This document shows, one piece after another, positions 20,774 to 26,514 of a stretch of 37,219 nucleotides of DNA. Positions within the stretch are counted from its first letter, which is position 1; the number at the start of each line of letters is the position of its first letter. The stretch comes from Bacteroidota bacterium (GTDB taxonomy: Bacteria > Bacteroidota > Bacteroidia > 2-12-FULL-35-15). Made by a program: the position numbers and the translations under genes. Under the pieces are notes generated by a model. It worked only from the letters and a program-made list of their open reading frames with translations. It did no database searches and was not told where the DNA came from. The stretch lies in the NCBI GenBank assembly GCA_025363555.1, contig JANYDQ010000245.1, forward strand, positions 1 to 37,219, read 5' to 3'.

Positions 20774-21544
20774 TTACCTGCTCACCACTATTTTCTTCCT
20801 CACTATCCCACTATCTGTTACAGCAGAAATAAAATAAATACCATCATTCATCAAAGTAAAATCTATAGATGTTTCTGTTTCTACTATTTTATTTTCTACC
20901 ATCTCACCTAATGTACTTACTATTTTAATTTGAGTAGTACCCGTTGGCAATTTTGCTGTAAAGTTTCCTGTGCTTGGGTTGGGGAAGAGGGTTAAATCAG
21001 GTTGCGCGGGTATAACAGGAGAAGAAAGAATATATTCAATTGATGATTTTGAGCATTCATTTGTACTTGTTATAACCTTGTAGGTTCCATATTTTGAGGC
21101 GCAGAAATAAAATAATGTTGCCCCATTAATTATTGCATCATTATAATACCATTGATATTGCCTGGAATCTGAGCTGATTAAACAATTTCCATGAGTCGTA
21201 ATAGTTGGGATTTGAATATATGATATTTTAAACGAATGGCTTATATAAGGACCATTATAATCGAAATAATTGCAATCGAATACAGAATAATAAGTACCAG
21301 TGTCAGTAGCAATATATGATGGGTTGGTACTTACTAATATGCCATTTTTATACCATCGGTGATTAGTACTTACAATATCACCACCGTCTTCTACATAAAA
21401 AAATAAATTGACAGATATAGGTTGGTTCTCACAACAAAGTAAATCACTTGCAGAATAATTACTTTGGTGCGTTACTCCTACCTTTGAATAACAATCAGTA
21501 GTAATAAATAGTAAAATAATCGGAAATAAAACTTTCGCTTTCAT
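20774..21544 (-). CDS. Type IX secreted protein with sorting domain, 256 aa
   Basis: A 256-residue protein with a signal peptide (MKAKVLFPIILLFITTDCYS). A Cys-containing beta-rich middle follows, with WYKNGILVSTNPSYIATDTG and QWYYNDAIINGAT, which look like two degenerate Ig-like units seen in many secreted Bacteroidota proteins. The last 75 residues are a type A sorting domain: LTLFPNPSTGNFTAKL, IVSTLGEMV, DGIYFISAVTDSG and a basic end RKKIVVSR. It should cross the outer membrane by the type IX machinery and stay on the surface or be released. No catalytic motif is seen; an adhesin-like role is inference. Confidence 0.88.
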   Translation of the reverse strand: MKAKVLFPIILLFITTDCYSKVGVTHQSNYSASDLLCCENQPISVNLFFYVEDGGDIVSTNHRWYKNGILVSTNPSYIATDTGTYYSVFDCNYFDYNGPYISHSFKISYIQIPTITTHGNCLISSDSRQYQWYYNDAIINGATLFYFCASKYGTYKVITSTNECSKSSIEYILSSPVIPAQPDLTLFPNPSTGNFTAKLPTGTTQIKIVSTLGEMVENKIVETETSIDFTLMNDGIYFISAVTDSGIVRKKIVVSR

Positions 21545-21872
21545 TTTTTTTAATGCTTTAAAGGTTAATAAATAAAAAACTTAATAAATTAAAAAATTTG
21601 TTGGTCGTAAAGTTTCTTCTATAGGCGGTATGTTTTTTTTTGTAAAAGTAAAGTTATTTTTTTAAATAAAAAGTTTTTTAAATAAAAAAGTACCATTTCC
21701 TTCACATAAAAATTCCATCATTTCACATAAATATTTCGTCCCTTTAAATAGACAAGTTTTTTTTTCCCTGTTTACCTCTTATATTCCATCCCTTCTAAAA
21801 AAATAGTTCAGTGAGTTTTATGTCACTAAAGTTTATTGGAGATAGTTGTGTATTATATTCCGTAAAAAAAAA
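21545..21872. other. A+T-rich gap without a recognisable gene
   Basis: The 328 bases between the type IX secreted protein and the winged-helix protein are very rich in A and T, with long T and A runs (for example 21632-21667). I see no convincing start-to-stop frame, tRNA or strong hairpin. It must hold the promoter of the type IX gene (minus strand) and the transcript end of the winged-helix gene (minus strand), but neither can be placed with confidence. Confidence 0.6.
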
Positions 21873-22271
21873 TTAAGGTTTCTTTGCCTTTGCTGCCTTA
21901 ATCTTTGCATGTATTGATATAAGTAATGGTTCGTTTGCATCCGCAAATACTTTTGTATTAATAAAGGGAGGAGAAATGGATATTCCATCGGCAGTTAAAA
22001 AGTAGAAAAACTTTGATGGTATTGCAACATCAATTAATACCTTTCCAACAATCTGATTTTCTATCATTCTTTTCAGCTGCCTTTTTAACTCCTGTACTGA
22101 AAGTCCTGTACTTTTTGCTAACTGACTCATTTTTTGTTTTTCGTTTATTAGTCCGTTAATAATTTTTACCTGCGAATTATTTTCTACAATTTCTCCTAAA
22201 TTGGCCAATTGACGGCTATGTTTAGTTACCAGGTTGGTGGTATCTATTTTACCGTTTTTATTTCTTTTCAT
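21873..22271 (-). CDS. Small winged-helix DNA-binding protein (putative regulator)
   Basis: A 132-residue basic protein. Residues 35-44 (VKIINGLINE) form helix 1. KMSQLAKSTGLSVQELKRQLKRMIENQIV (47-75) reads as helix-turn-helix, with GLS at the turn. GKVLIDVAIPSKFFYFLT (76-93) looks like the wing. This resembles ArsR/MarR-type winged helices, but I cannot assign a named family. The N-terminus is polar and the tail is Ala/Lys-rich, possibly for DNA contact. The gene is divergent from a 42-bp repeat array and the 317-residue unknown protein. A 25-bp dyad lies 52-76 bases before its start codon, suggesting autoregulation and control of the divergent gene. Confidence 0.65.
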   Translation of the reverse strand: MKRNKNGKIDTTNLVTKHSRQLANLGEIVENNSQVKIINGLINEKQKMSQLAKSTGLSVQELKRQLKRMIENQIVGKVLIDVAIPSKFFYFLTADGISISPPFINTKVFADANEPLLISIHAKIKAAKAKKP

Positions 22272-22347: not shown

Positions 22348-22452
22348 GATTTGGTATAAAAATATTACCGTACTTCACGCAGCGTAAAAAACCAGTACCT
22401 TGTTCTTTGAATTTTTTTTGAACGATTTTTCTTTGAAAGAAAGAAGAAAAAA

Positions 22453-22690
22453 AGTTTTTATACTATATCACACGCGTGGAGGTATATCAAAGAAAGTTTT
22501 TATATATGTTCACACGTGTGGAGGTATGTCAAAGAAAGTTTTTATATATGTTCACACGTGTGGAGGTAAGTCAAAGAAAGTTTTTATATATGTTCACACG
22601 TGTGGAGGTAAGTCAAAGAAAGTTTTTATATATGTTCACACATGTGGAGGTAAGTCAAAGAAAGTTTTTATATATGTTCACACGTGTGGA
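22453..22690. repeat. Tandem 42-bp repeat array with a palindrome in each unit
   Basis: Units begin at 22453, 22495, 22537, 22579, 22621 and 22663: five full copies and a partial sixth of 28 bases. The unit starts AGTTTTTATATATG, continues with TTCACACGTGTGGAGGTAAG and ends TCAAAGAA. Each carries a 10-base palindrome: CACACGTGTG at 22511, 22553, 22595 and 22679, CACACATGTG at 22637, and CACACGCGTG at 22469. Differences between copies are few (TATATC, TATGTC, TAAGTC), so the array grew recently or is kept uniform. Forty-two bases equals four 10.5-bp helical turns and also 14 codons. Two plus-strand frames stay open through it for this trivial reason. It ends 41 bases before the ATG of the unknown protein. 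Confidence 0.9.
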
Positions 22691-22731: not shown

Positions 22732-23685
22732 ATGTCAAATCCTAATTCATGGCAACCAGCCGAAAATTTTGTTCGCAATGGAGTTCGCGGAAACTACACC
22801 GTAGCTTTAAAAGTAAGCACCTTTCATTTCAATGCGCTAACAGCACAAAGCTCAAATGTTGCAATAGCAGCACTGCTTGTGCTTTATACCCCTTATCATA
22901 ACGGGTTGGTGAGCGCATCCACTGCTAAGCTAAGTGCCTTGGGCGATAGAATAGGGGATACTCAAACCAAGAGTGAATTATTCCTTGAGCTGACACAGGT
23001 AAGGCTTCCTATATGGCAGCAAATGATTGGTAATGTGTATGCACGTGGCACAGCTGCTTTCAAAACGTTGTTTCCTTTCGGGCTCGATGTTTTTCACAAC
23101 GGCACCATCGAAAATAAATTAATCAACCTTCGCACACTGCGCGACAAATGCACTGCCGATGCCTCCCTGGCTGCTGTTGCATCCCTTATTACTTCATTTT
23201 ATTCTGCTATCAATAATGCAAGAAACACACAGGAAGGTGAAAAAACAATTGTAGGGGTAGGAATCAATAATCAGCAGGATGCCATAGAAGCTATGTGTAT
23301 TCAAATGTTTGCCGACTATGGTACAATAGTCAGTCTTTTTCCCAACGGTCCCACCAGGATAAAAAGCTTTATTGATGTGGTTACACTCCAGGACCATGTT
23401 CACAGCCCACTTTACACAGGAGTAGTAAATACAAATAAAATAAGAAAAGTAGCAACCAAAACCGTTACCTCACTAAGCAAAATAAAAGTGAGCTGCGATG
23501 TAGATTTAATGATTTGGGTAAACGATTCAGCAAAAAACCCCATACACCCTGCCGGTGTTTTTATTCCCGCAAACACTCCTACCATTGCCGAATTCCCCGG
23601 TTTAGGAAACCCAGACAACCGTGTGTTCCAGATTCATAATTTAAGTCTAACCACCAAGGGGCATTACACCGTAGAGTTTTTGTAA
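22732..23685 (+). CDS. Protein of unknown function, 317 aa
   Basis: A 317-residue protein I do not recognise. It has no signal peptide or membrane helix. Residues about 1-200 look helical (for example NVAIAALLVLYTPYHNGLVSAS, LELTQVRLPIWQQMIGNVYARG, TLRDKCTADASLAAVASLITSFYSAI). A middle part QDAIEAMCIQMFADYGTIVSLF follows. The end is beta-rich: LSKIKVSCDVDLMIWVND, PAGVFIPANTPTIAEFPGLGNPDNRVFQI and KGHYTVEFL. ATG 22732 is chosen because the preceding in-frame codons run into the repeat array. The gene looks somewhat richer in C and G than its neighbours. It is preceded by the palindrome array and a divergent winged-helix gene, and closed by its own terminator, so it is a single-gene unit. Confidence 0.8.
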   Translation: MSNPNSWQPAENFVRNGVRGNYTVALKVSTFHFNALTAQSSNVAIAALLVLYTPYHNGLVSASTAKLSALGDRIGDTQTKSELFLELTQVRLPIWQQMIGNVYARGTAAFKTLFPFGLDVFHNGTIENKLINLRTLRDKCTADASLAAVASLITSFYSAINNARNTQEGEKTIVGVGINNQQDAIEAMCIQMFADYGTIVSLFPNGPTRIKSFIDVVTLQDHVHSPLYTGVVNTNKIRKVATKTVTSLSKIKVSCDVDLMIWVNDSAKNPIHPAGVFIPANTPTIAEFPGLGNPDNRVFQIHNLSLTTKGHYTVEFL

Positions 23686-23840: not shown

Positions 23841-23972
23841 TGAGGTCTTGAATTTGTGAAGTCTTGAATTTGGGCGTGCCCCTGCGGGTCGGGCTTTCCG
23901 CTTCAATCTTTTTTGCCCCCCCTTTATCCAACGCAACAAAAAAGGATTTCCGCTGCAATCCCTCACGCTGCG
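23841..23972. repeat. G+C-rich interspersed repeat block
   Basis: Two tandem 16-base units differ in one base (TGAGGTCTTGAATTTG at 23841 and TGAAGTCTTGAATTTG at 23857). A block starting GGGCGTGCCCCTGCGGGTCGG (from 23873) follows, containing TTTCCGCTTCAATC (23895) and TTTCCGCTGCAATC (23947) as spaced direct repeats. Its composition is strikingly different from the A+T-rich surroundings. Blocks of the 'GGGCGTGCCCCTGCGGGTCGGGC...TTTCCGCTGCAATC' type occur as dispersed non-coding repeats in Bacteroidota. The rest of 23781-24015 holds no gene; a minus-strand open frame across it (23664-23987) is an accident of composition. Confidence 0.6.
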
Positions 23973-24015
23973 CTTCCTGACAACCATTATGAAAAAAATA
24001 TACTTATTCTAAAAC

Positions 24016-24057: not shown

Positions 24058-24133
24058 GGTGGCTGATGGGACTCGAACCCACGACACTCGGTACCACAAA
24101 CCGATGCTCTAACCAAACTGAACTACAGCCACC
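24058..24133 (-). tRNA. tRNA-His, anticodon GTG
   Basis: On the minus strand the sequence folds into a standard cloverleaf. The acceptor strand GGTGGCTG pairs over eight positions with CAGCCACC, giving the extra G-1:C73 pair that marks tRNA-His. The D-arm is GTTC...GAGC. The anticodon stem TCGGT/ACCGA has the loop TTGTGGT, so the anticodon is GTG. The T-arm is GTGGG TTCGAGT CCCAT. The 3' CCA is not encoded. A -7 box lies 17 bases upstream and a terminator downstream, so it is a single-gene transcript. Confidence 0.96.
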
Positions 24134-24190: not shown

Positions 24191-24327
24191 TTAGCTAATT
24201 GACGATGCAACTTAAGAGCTTACTGAACAATTAGCTAATTACCTCATCAGCTAATTAGCTAATTACCCTCATCAGCTAATTAGCTAATTATCCAATTAGC
24301 TAATCAACACATCAGCTAATTAATTAA
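24191..24327. repeat. AGCTAATT palindrome repeats upstream of the P-type ATPase
   Basis: Copies of TTAGCTAATT or AGCTAATTAGCTAATTA occur at about 24191, 24231, 24249, 24274, 24295 and 24313. Two copies of a unit starting CATCAGCTAATT are exactly 25 bases apart (24245 and 24270). AATTAGCTAATT is itself a palindrome. The last copy merges into the -7 box of the ATPase gene. Such runs are common dispersed repeats in this phylum; binding-site function is possible but unsupported. Confidence 0.75.
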
Positions 24328-24342: not shown

Positions 24343-26514
24343 ATGGACACATCTACCACCAACACCACCCTTCATGTAGAAGGCATGGACTGCGCTTCGT
24401 GCGCCCTGGGCATCACCAAAAACCTTGAGAAAAAAGGAGCCGAAAATGTGTTTGTGGATTATGCCACCGGTGAAGCTACTTTTTTATTAAAAGACAAAAA
24501 CAAACTGCCTTTATTAATCCAAAGTATTCACAGCATTGGTTACACCGTGGTGGATAGTAAATTTCGCGAAGCGCAGGAAGGCAAACTGTCGCCTGTTGAA
24601 AAACGTTTTTATTTCACTCTTCCTTTCACCATCATTTTATTTTTCGGGCACATGCTGCTTTCCCACAGCTTTATTTTAAACCAGCCATTAGCTCAATTAT
24701 TCCTTTGTTTACCTGTCTTTATAATCGGCATCATGCAGTTTGGCAAGTCGGCATGGGGCAGTGTAAAAACAGGAGTACCCAACATGGATGTTCTCATTTT
24801 TATTGGTTCATCGTCCGCCTTTATTTACAGCATCATCGGCATGATAATGTATTTCGGAACTCACCAGGTGCATAACTATTTGTTTTTTGAAACCACCGCC
24901 ACCATTATTACATTAGTATTATTAGGCAATGTGTTCGAACATCGTTCGGTAAAGCAAACCACCACCGCCATTCGCGAGTTGAGCGCCATACAGGTAACCA
25001 CCGCCAATATAGTGGGATTGCAAATGGGCAAAGAAGTGATTTCGGAAATAGAATACAAAGATATTATGGTGGGCGCCATATTGCAGGTAAATACAGGAGA
25101 TAAAATAGCAGTGGACGGAGAAATAATTTCGGGAGATGCAACCATAGACGAATCCATGATAACCGGAGAAAGCATACCGGTAGAGAAAACAATTACTCAT
25201 AAAGTAATAGGTGGAACCATTGTAGTTAATGGCAATGTAAGGATGCGAGCCGAAAAGGTGGGCAACGAAACCGTGCTGGCAAAGATTATAGAACTGGTGA
25301 AAAAAGCACAACAAAACAAACCCGATATTCAAAAGCTGGGCGATAGAATATCTGCCATATTTGTGCCTGTAGTATTAGGTATTTCTATTCTTACCTTTAT
25401 TACTAACTACTTTTTTGTTCATTTCGAATCAGGTTATCCCTTAAGAGAATCCATAATGAGGGCAATTGCGGTAATGGTTATTTCGTGCCCGTGTGCCATG
25501 GGATTAGCCACTCCCACAGCGGTAATGGTGGGCATTGGTCGGGCTGCCCGAAAAGGAATATTAATAAAAGGAGGAAACACGCTGGAGCAATTTGCCAATA
25601 TTAAAAACATTGTTTTTGATAAAACAGGAACATTGACCACAGGTAATTTCAAGATAAAAAACATTACTACCTATGATGGTAAAACACAAGAAGAGGTGAT
25701 AGAAATATTGTTTCAGCTGGAACAACATTCTTCTCATCCTATTGCAAAATCAATAGTAGCAAGCCTTGCACTATCACCACATGAAAATGGCGGAAGTAAT
25801 CCGCTTCTTTTGAAGGAAATTAAAGAAGAAAAAGGATTGGGAGTTTCGGGAACGGATAAGGATGATAATGAATATAAAATTGGTTCGTATAAAATAGCTA
25901 CACATCTTACCAAAAGCAACATGCACTCGGTGTATATGGTTAGAAATAACGTATTGATAGCAACCGTGGATTTGGAAGATGAAATAAAAACAAATGCAAA
26001 ACAACTTATCGGTAACCTTCATAAAAGTGGTGTTACCACGTTTATGCTTAGCGGGGACAATAAAATAAAATGCGAAGCATTGGCAGAAAAGCTGGGCATT
26101 GACGCAGTATATAGCGAGCAGCTGCCGGCTCAAAAACTGGCGCTGATTGATAAACTGGTAAAAGAAAATTCAACCGCTATGGTGGGCGATGGCGTAAACG
26201 ATGCACCAGCACTGGCAAGAGCTACAGTAGGTATTTCATTAAGCAATGCCACACAGGTGGCTATTCAATCGGCACAAATTATTTTATTAAAGAGCAATGA
26301 TTTGAATATTCTCACCGATGCCCATTTGATTAGTAAACATACGTTGATAACGATCAAACAAAATTTATTCTGGGCTTTCTTTTATAATGTGGTTGCCATA
26401 CCTGTTGCAGCCATGGGTTTCCTTAGTCCTGCGCTTGGCGCTTTGGCAATGGCTGCTTCCGATGTAATTGTGATAGGAAATTCCATTCGGTTAAAAACAA
26501 AAAGACTACGTTAA
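24343..26514 (+). CDS. copA: Copper-type P1B ATPase
   Basis: A 723-residue heavy-metal pump. One N-terminal metal-binding domain carries GMDCASC (Cys17, Cys20). Eight membrane segments are expected. Other landmarks are the TGES loop (TGESIPVEK), the membrane metal site CPC (Cys382, Cys384), the phosphorylation site DKTGTLT (Asp426), HSSHPIAKS in the nucleotide domain and GDGVNDAPA (615-623). CPC together with FYNVVAIP in segment 7 points to Cu(I) export. The segment 8 motif is MAASD where classic CopA has MxxSS, so silver or another soft metal cannot be excluded. No copper chaperone or regulator gene is adjacent. The -7 box 10 bases upstream supports the ATG. The next gene begins 6 bases on. 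Confidence 0.9.
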   Translation: MDTSTTNTTLHVEGMDCASCALGITKNLEKKGAENVFVDYATGEATFLLKDKNKLPLLIQSIHSIGYTVVDSKFREAQEGKLSPVEKRFYFTLPFTIILFFGHMLLSHSFILNQPLAQLFLCLPVFIIGIMQFGKSAWGSVKTGVPNMDVLIFIGSSSAFIYSIIGMIMYFGTHQVHNYLFFETTATIITLVLLGNVFEHRSVKQTTTAIRELSAIQVTTANIVGLQMGKEVISEIEYKDIMVGAILQVNTGDKIAVDGEIISGDATIDESMITGESIPVEKTITHKVIGGTIVVNGNVRMRAEKVGNETVLAKIIELVKKAQQNKPDIQKLGDRISAIFVPVVLGISILTFITNYFFVHFESGYPLRESIMRAIAVMVISCPCAMGLATPTAVMVGIGRAARKGILIKGGNTLEQFANIKNIVFDKTGTLTTGNFKIKNITTYDGKTQEEVIEILFQLEQHSSHPIAKSIVASLALSPHENGGSNPLLLKEIKEEKGLGVSGTDKDDNEYKIGSYKIATHLTKSNMHSVYMVRNNVLIATVDLEDEIKTNAKQLIGNLHKSGVTTFMLSGDNKIKCEALAEKLGIDAVYSEQLPAQKLALIDKLVKENSTAMVGDGVNDAPALARATVGISLSNATQVAIQSAQIILLKSNDLNILTDAHLISKHTLITIKQNLFWAFFYNVVAIPVAAMGFLSPALGALAMAASDVIVIGNSIRLKTKRLR

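Follow-up and report, generated by a model that had tools for sequence, protein, structure and literature searches.

Helically phased tandem repeat arrays beside genes of a jelly-roll protein family in Bacteroidota

Plasmid iterons are Rep-binding direct repeats spaced about two helical turns apart, and the type III toxin-antitoxin loci include cptIN and tenpIN in addition to toxIN. In the toxIN locus, short tandem repeats accompany a protein gene (PMC8860590). The sopC site of the F plasmid is made up of twelve 43-bp units and contains ten 16-bp inverted repeats to which ParB binds (PMC6238139). REP and BIME elements (e.g. PMC3733652) are intergenic palindromic repeats that, like the arrays described here, are dispersed in the genome.

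We analyzed a window of 37,219 nt (the whole stretch of DNA under study, contig JANYDQ010000245.1) from a 4.3-Mb draft genome of 400 contigs, the close relatives of which are Bacteroidetes metagenome-assembled genomes that, going by their isolate names, probably come from freshwater. It contains a tandem array for which sopC (parS) is the nearest precedent in layout, as both consist of tandem repeats of nearly equal length, about four helical turns, with inverted symmetry. Unlike sopC, the arrays seen here are chromosomal, occur many times per genome and have a sequence specific to each array. Although its repeats agree with those of sopC, the window array is not a sopC site because the adjacent sopA/sopB (parA/parB) operon is absent. 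Specifically, the linked gene has no ParB match, and the scanned flanking genes match a regulator of the HxlR type and a metal P-type ATPase, with no ParA/ParB among them. Absence of the partner gene likewise separates these arrays from iterons, as a search for a Rep match in both of the protein families linked to arrays found none. The window array and the other arrays of its family are not direct repeats, whereas the arrays linked to a second family, characterized by an fn3 domain, are direct 21-bp repeats that share with iterons both the spacing and a locus-specific sequence; these arrays differ from iterons in reaching up to ~20 copies and in being scattered over the chromosome. A REP/BIME assignment was rejected, given that REPs share one genome-wide sequence whereas the arrays here share only their period and have units that differ from array to array. 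A CRISPR array was also rejected, as the units directly adjoin each other with no unique spacers between them and the repeat extends over the full unit. Finally, a search that covered open-access PMC papers turned up no description of such arrays. Given this limited search and the failure of these assignments, the arrays apparently constitute a large undescribed class that is variable in sequence and has a spacing near multiples of 21 bp.

The array in the window and its neighbors

The features of the locus are listed in Table 1. TRF gives the window array a score of 423 with 95% matches between copies, and autocorrelation gives a self-identity of 0.99 at lag 42 relative to values of 0.51 or less in shuffles. 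The original prediction of six 42-bp units with palindrome centers 42 bp apart is borne out by the TRF result and by the positions of the six 10-bp cores, which are spaced by exactly 42 bp. The array also ends 41 nt before the start codon of the linked gene, as had been stated. What has to be corrected is the description of units 1 and 5 as re-centered palindromes, as each carries a single substitution that breaks the dyad. When the unit is considered as a whole, the symmetry of the window array reaches only z=1.7. A search of Rfam gave no reliable match to the array. A coding repeat was rejected, as 41-bp periods shift the reading frame and some units (e.g. those of L104) have stops in all three frames.

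Table 1. Coordinates of the array, its cores and the neighboring features in the window
Feature	Position	Strand	Remarks
Secretion-tail gene	20774-21544	-	AT-rich DNA upstream
Weak 21-bp period	21632-21765		TRF score 75; in the AT-rich DNA upstream of the secretion-tail gene
HxlR-like winged-helix gene	21873-22271	-	Divergent, on far side of array; Pfam HxlR E 3.6e-5
Tandem array	22447-22690		Period 42 bp, 5.8 copies, consensus AAAGAAAGTTTTTATATATGTTCACACGTGTGGAGGTAAGTC; TRF and autocorrelation
Unit 1 core CACACGCGTG	22469-22478		One dyad pair broken; sequence reading
Unit 2 core CACACGTGTG	22511-22520		Perfect dyad; sequence reading
Unit 3 core CACACGTGTG	22553-22562		Perfect dyad; sequence reading
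Unit 4 core CACACGTGTG	22595-22604		Perfect dyad; sequence reading
Unit 5 core CACACATGTG	22637-22646		Central pair broken; sequence reading
Unit 6 core CACACGTGTG	22679-22688		Perfect dyad; sequence reading
Gene of 317-aa uncharacterized protein	22732-23685	+	Unannotated; ORF, homologues, AF2 model
Flavo-1 RNA (RF01705)	23883-23973	-	58.5 bits, above gathering score; downstream of linked gene
tRNA gene (RF00005)	24058-24132	-	60 bits
Imperfect AATTAGCT tandem repeats	24229-24322		TRF periods 8 and 25; upstream of ATPase gene
Heavy-metal P-type ATPase gene	24343-26514

The divergent gene on the far side of the array codes for an HxlR-like winged-helix protein, and regulators of the HxlR type bind dyad sites. 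The array could thus be an operator for this regulator, the protein with which a binding check was suggested along with the original prediction, and an HxlR-like gene is indeed found across the array at L098, L100 and L101 as well as in the window, with a weak relative at L062. These loci all belong to the window clade, and beside the other arrays no relative of the HxlR-like gene was found. We therefore rejected an HxlR-type operator as an account of all homologous loci; it is unlikely that the arrays in general are bound by a neighboring winged-helix protein, and we regard the operator reading as very improbable.

The linked gene on the other side codes for a 317-aa protein, and its AlphaFold2 model is confident, with a mean pLDDT of 90. 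The model predicts a helical hairpin formed by two helices of ~60 residues each (43-102 and 144-202), followed by a C-terminal jelly-roll, or beta-sandwich, at residues ~227-317. There is no usable match to this protein in Pfam, NCBIfam, PADLOC, PHROGs or PDB sequences, and structure searches returned only a generic jelly-roll and long helices, with no nuclease among the top matches listed. A kinship to insecticidal toxins was rejected, as the structure matches cover only long helices or the common jelly-roll with middling Z. The linked proteins are near neutral in charge, and we found in them no recognizable DNA-binding motif and no known DNA-binding fold. The jelly-roll family is multi-copy and is present in 9 of 36 genomes of the window's genus, but it is rare across the phylum (3 of 395 genomes); in one GC-rich genus a shorter protein of the family occurs in 13 of 61 genomes. 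A search of plasmids and viral contigs for the linked protein found none. As a separate observation, L136 (G000:C174) is a frame of 2,458 residues, part of which shows weak similarity to the linked protein (E ~1e-4), and a 21-bp array lies ~285 nt upstream of the frame.

Period and symmetry at homologous loci

Arrays are near-obligately linked to the jelly-roll gene family. When lags of 20-69 were scanned upstream of the same-genus homologues that have at least 280 nt of upstream sequence, the top period was 42 (34 loci) or 41 (4 loci) at all 38 of them, although about six are weak, with values barely above those of shuffles (e.g. 0.54 vs 0.50 at L112 and 0.56 vs 0.52 at L129). No such period was seen in the limited upstream sequence of three homologues on short contig ends and of the second own-genome copy, on C251 (~300 nt). 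The units of the same-genus upstream arrays are mostly unrelated in sequence. This is also the outcome of the check proposed along with the original prediction, a search for the 42-bp unit in its own and related genomes, where relatives share the period and differ in the palindrome. For example, contig C138 of the window's genome ends in a second array that has the linker GGTATATCAAAGAAAGTTTTTA and a period of 42 bp but another palindrome. Exact matches to the linker core in the window's genome are confined to these two arrays, and the exact core was found in none of the other genomes and viral contigs. Further related arrays with the same period and different palindromes occur in same-genus genomes, and in G032 one of them precedes a homologue of the linked gene in the same orientation. 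In genome G034 an orthologous module has a diverged array, and the gene order of the window is kept on one side of the module. A conserved third gene was sought near the arrays, and only clade-specific or common secreted proteins were found. At L060 (3035-3349) the first and last palindromes are perfect and unlike each other, and the middle units combine the left arm of one end palindrome with the right arm of the other.

Beyond the window's genus the position of the array changes. In the window's genus the arrays of this family lie mostly 31-270 nt upstream of the ATG. Homologues in the GC-rich genus also have 41- or 42-bp arrays, but these mostly start no more than ~200 nt 3' of the stop codon, with only a minority 5' of the gene. 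Direct 21-bp repeats accompany a homologue (G215) from yet another family of the phylum. These positions bear on the idea of a promoter spacer, one of the options in the original prediction. Such a spacer could tune expression, as changes of copy number in whole turns would alter distance and keep promoter phasing. Copy number does vary among loci, steps of 21n would keep the helical phase, and the location upstream of the ATG in the window's genus would suit such a role. The 3' location in most members of the GC-rich genus weakens this idea, and we consider it improbable. It was also observed that in five loci of the GC-rich genus (L154, L147, L159, L165 and L167) the first unit past the stop codon has the form of a near-perfect hairpin, similar to a bidirectional terminator (AAAAGCCCG...CGGGCTTTT).

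The geometry of the units was determined from 59 clear arrays. The period is 42 in 49 of these and 41 in 10, and the mean of 41.83 corresponds to 10.46 bp per turn over four turns. The best dyad match of whole units is 0.62 relative to 0.49 when shuffled, with z>2 in 39 of the 59 arrays and weak symmetry in the units of the remaining ~20, and the palindrome centers are even in 54. There is no direct similarity between the 21-bp halves of a unit (0.31 vs 0.31). Because the units are symmetric as a whole and their halves lack direct similarity, the unit of this family typically comprises two inverted 21-bp halves, with dyad axes every 21 bp. The arrays thus combine helical phasing and inverted half-units with a fast turnover of sequence under a conserved period, and it is the period and the symmetry class, not the palindrome, that define them. 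We saw no one-turn sub-repeats and no 10-11-bp A/T rhythm that would hint at DNA bending.

We also addressed whether the arrays have properties of RNA. Mispairs in the units are G-T in 120 cases and A-C in 123, and the folding energies of the sense and antisense strands of upstream arrays are equal (P=0.6), whereas for 3' arrays the sense strand has a somewhat more favorable energy (P=0.004). This lack of a G-T excess, together with the equal strand energies of the upstream arrays, points to an array that acts as double-stranded DNA and not as RNA hairpins, with less certainty for the 3' arrays. These results are of importance for another explanation, a type III toxin-antitoxin-like pair in which transcription of the array would yield tandem RNA units and these would bind the protein. 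The resemblance is that a few-copy tandem array (~5-6 repeats) adjoins a protein gene in a toxIN-like layout (PMC8860590), with a repeat sequence specific to its partner, and that units fold more stably than their column-shuffled versions (mean z of -3.3 in 5' arrays and -6.3 in 3' arrays). However, there is overall neither a G-U preference nor a strand bias, and the array, upstream in the window's genus, mostly lies on the downstream side in the GC-rich genus. The direct 21-bp arrays linked to the fn3 family also have little self-complementarity. On the protein side, the alignment of 36 sequences of the jelly-roll family has no invariant residue, no nuclease is among the top structure matches, there is no match in Pfam, NCBIfam or PADLOC that would point to an endoribonuclease of the ToxN, CptN or TenpN kind, and the fold search was unspecific. 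We consider a toxin-antitoxin-like pair improbable.

A second protein family and the genome-wide survey

The second family linked to arrays consists of ~200-residue proteins with a helical domain and an fn3 domain (Pfam fn3 E 1.2e-7; model pLDDT 90). Genomes encode many of these proteins (L228-L257 and L282-L303), and most have a 21n array upstream that consists of direct repeats of 21 bp or its multiples (21, 42, 63, 84 and 105 bp). The best lag is within 1 bp of 21n at 31 of the 35 fn3 loci with a significant period, and fn3 loci with such arrays extend to homologues from several further bacterial families of the phylum. The direct class accounts for 18 of 22 fn3-linked arrays relative to 4 of 59 arrays of the jelly-roll family (Fisher P=9e-11, a nominal value that treats related loci as independent). 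Thus, the type of array tracks the protein family (nominal P about 1e-10), with inverted 42-bp arrays beside the jelly-roll family and direct 21-bp arrays beside the fn3 family.

The wider occurrence of arrays was surveyed in sampled 20-kb stretches, picked regardless of content and amounting to 400 kb per group of genomes. In the 400 kb from family-positive genomes there are 22 intergenic arrays, 16 of which are within 1 bp of 21n where uniform periods would give ~3; the 400 kb sampled from family-negative members of the genus contain three intergenic arrays in all. Of 25 arrays with a 21n period in the surveyed stretches, 18 have no detectable member of either family within 900 bp, indicating that 21n arrays are not exclusive to the two linked families.

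Such arrays are part of the case for the main rival explanation, that the arrays are functionless satellite-like repeats. In this explanation genome-wide slippage, recombination or a nucleoid protein would favor double-turn units, and some intergenic regions would tolerate them. Similar arrays are dispersed beside many ordinary genes, and the fast sequence turnover, the variable copy number and the presence of orphans are all as would be expected. It is opposed by the near-obligate linkage to two protein families, by a symmetry class that tracks the protein family and by the location of arrays on either side of the gene. The simple tandem expansion offered in the original prediction does not, by itself, explain the conserved period. 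We consider functionless repeats unlikely.

The arrays as a proposed platform for protein assembly

With a probability of about one half, we favor the reading that the array acts as double-stranded DNA and that its helical phasing makes it a platform on which proteins assemble cooperatively. Two-turn half-units of 21 bp that alternate in orientation would place a dyad axis every 21 bp and give the period of 42 bp, so that each copy in the array would present the same helix face. Protein copies would then assemble side by side and cooperatively on this platform, with autoregulation and local silencing as a first guess for the output. The original prediction of four-turn phasing with all sites on one face is supported as to the phasing, both by unrelated arrays that keep 41 or 42 bp and by fn3-linked arrays that keep 21n, and its cooperative platform is the leading idea. 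That the period is held near whole double turns while the sequence is free is a strong sign that helical spacing is measured.

The assembling protein would most likely be the product of the linked gene or a coevolving partner, and we tentatively name the linked protein as the first candidate binder. A broader possibility, which we also advance only tentatively, is a widespread two-part system of Bacteroidota in which small cytosolic proteins with helical and beta-sandwich parts are each encoded next to their own 21-bp-locked array, the protein family setting the symmetry and the protein assembling on its own and on matching orphan arrays. If the linked proteins do read the arrays, the pairing of protein and DNA would be of a new type and a common one in certain Bacteroidota genomes. 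It would also give a first handle on two uncharacterized protein families and provide many natural cases of changing DNA specificity.

Orphan arrays would be possible extra sites for such assembly. Those that resemble the window array were found only in genomes G000, G024 and G032, each of which has a close homologue of the window protein. Two of the four orphan units match best the linked array of the genome they come from (34 and 33 of 42 positions), and the remaining two resemble several linked arrays to about the same degree. Judged by sequence similarity, this pattern would fit recognition in trans or simple duplication. Finally, at L025 (2173-2862) a small protein without a Pfam match is encoded 16 bp after a 42/21-bp array of the window's own genome, and it possibly represents a further linked family.
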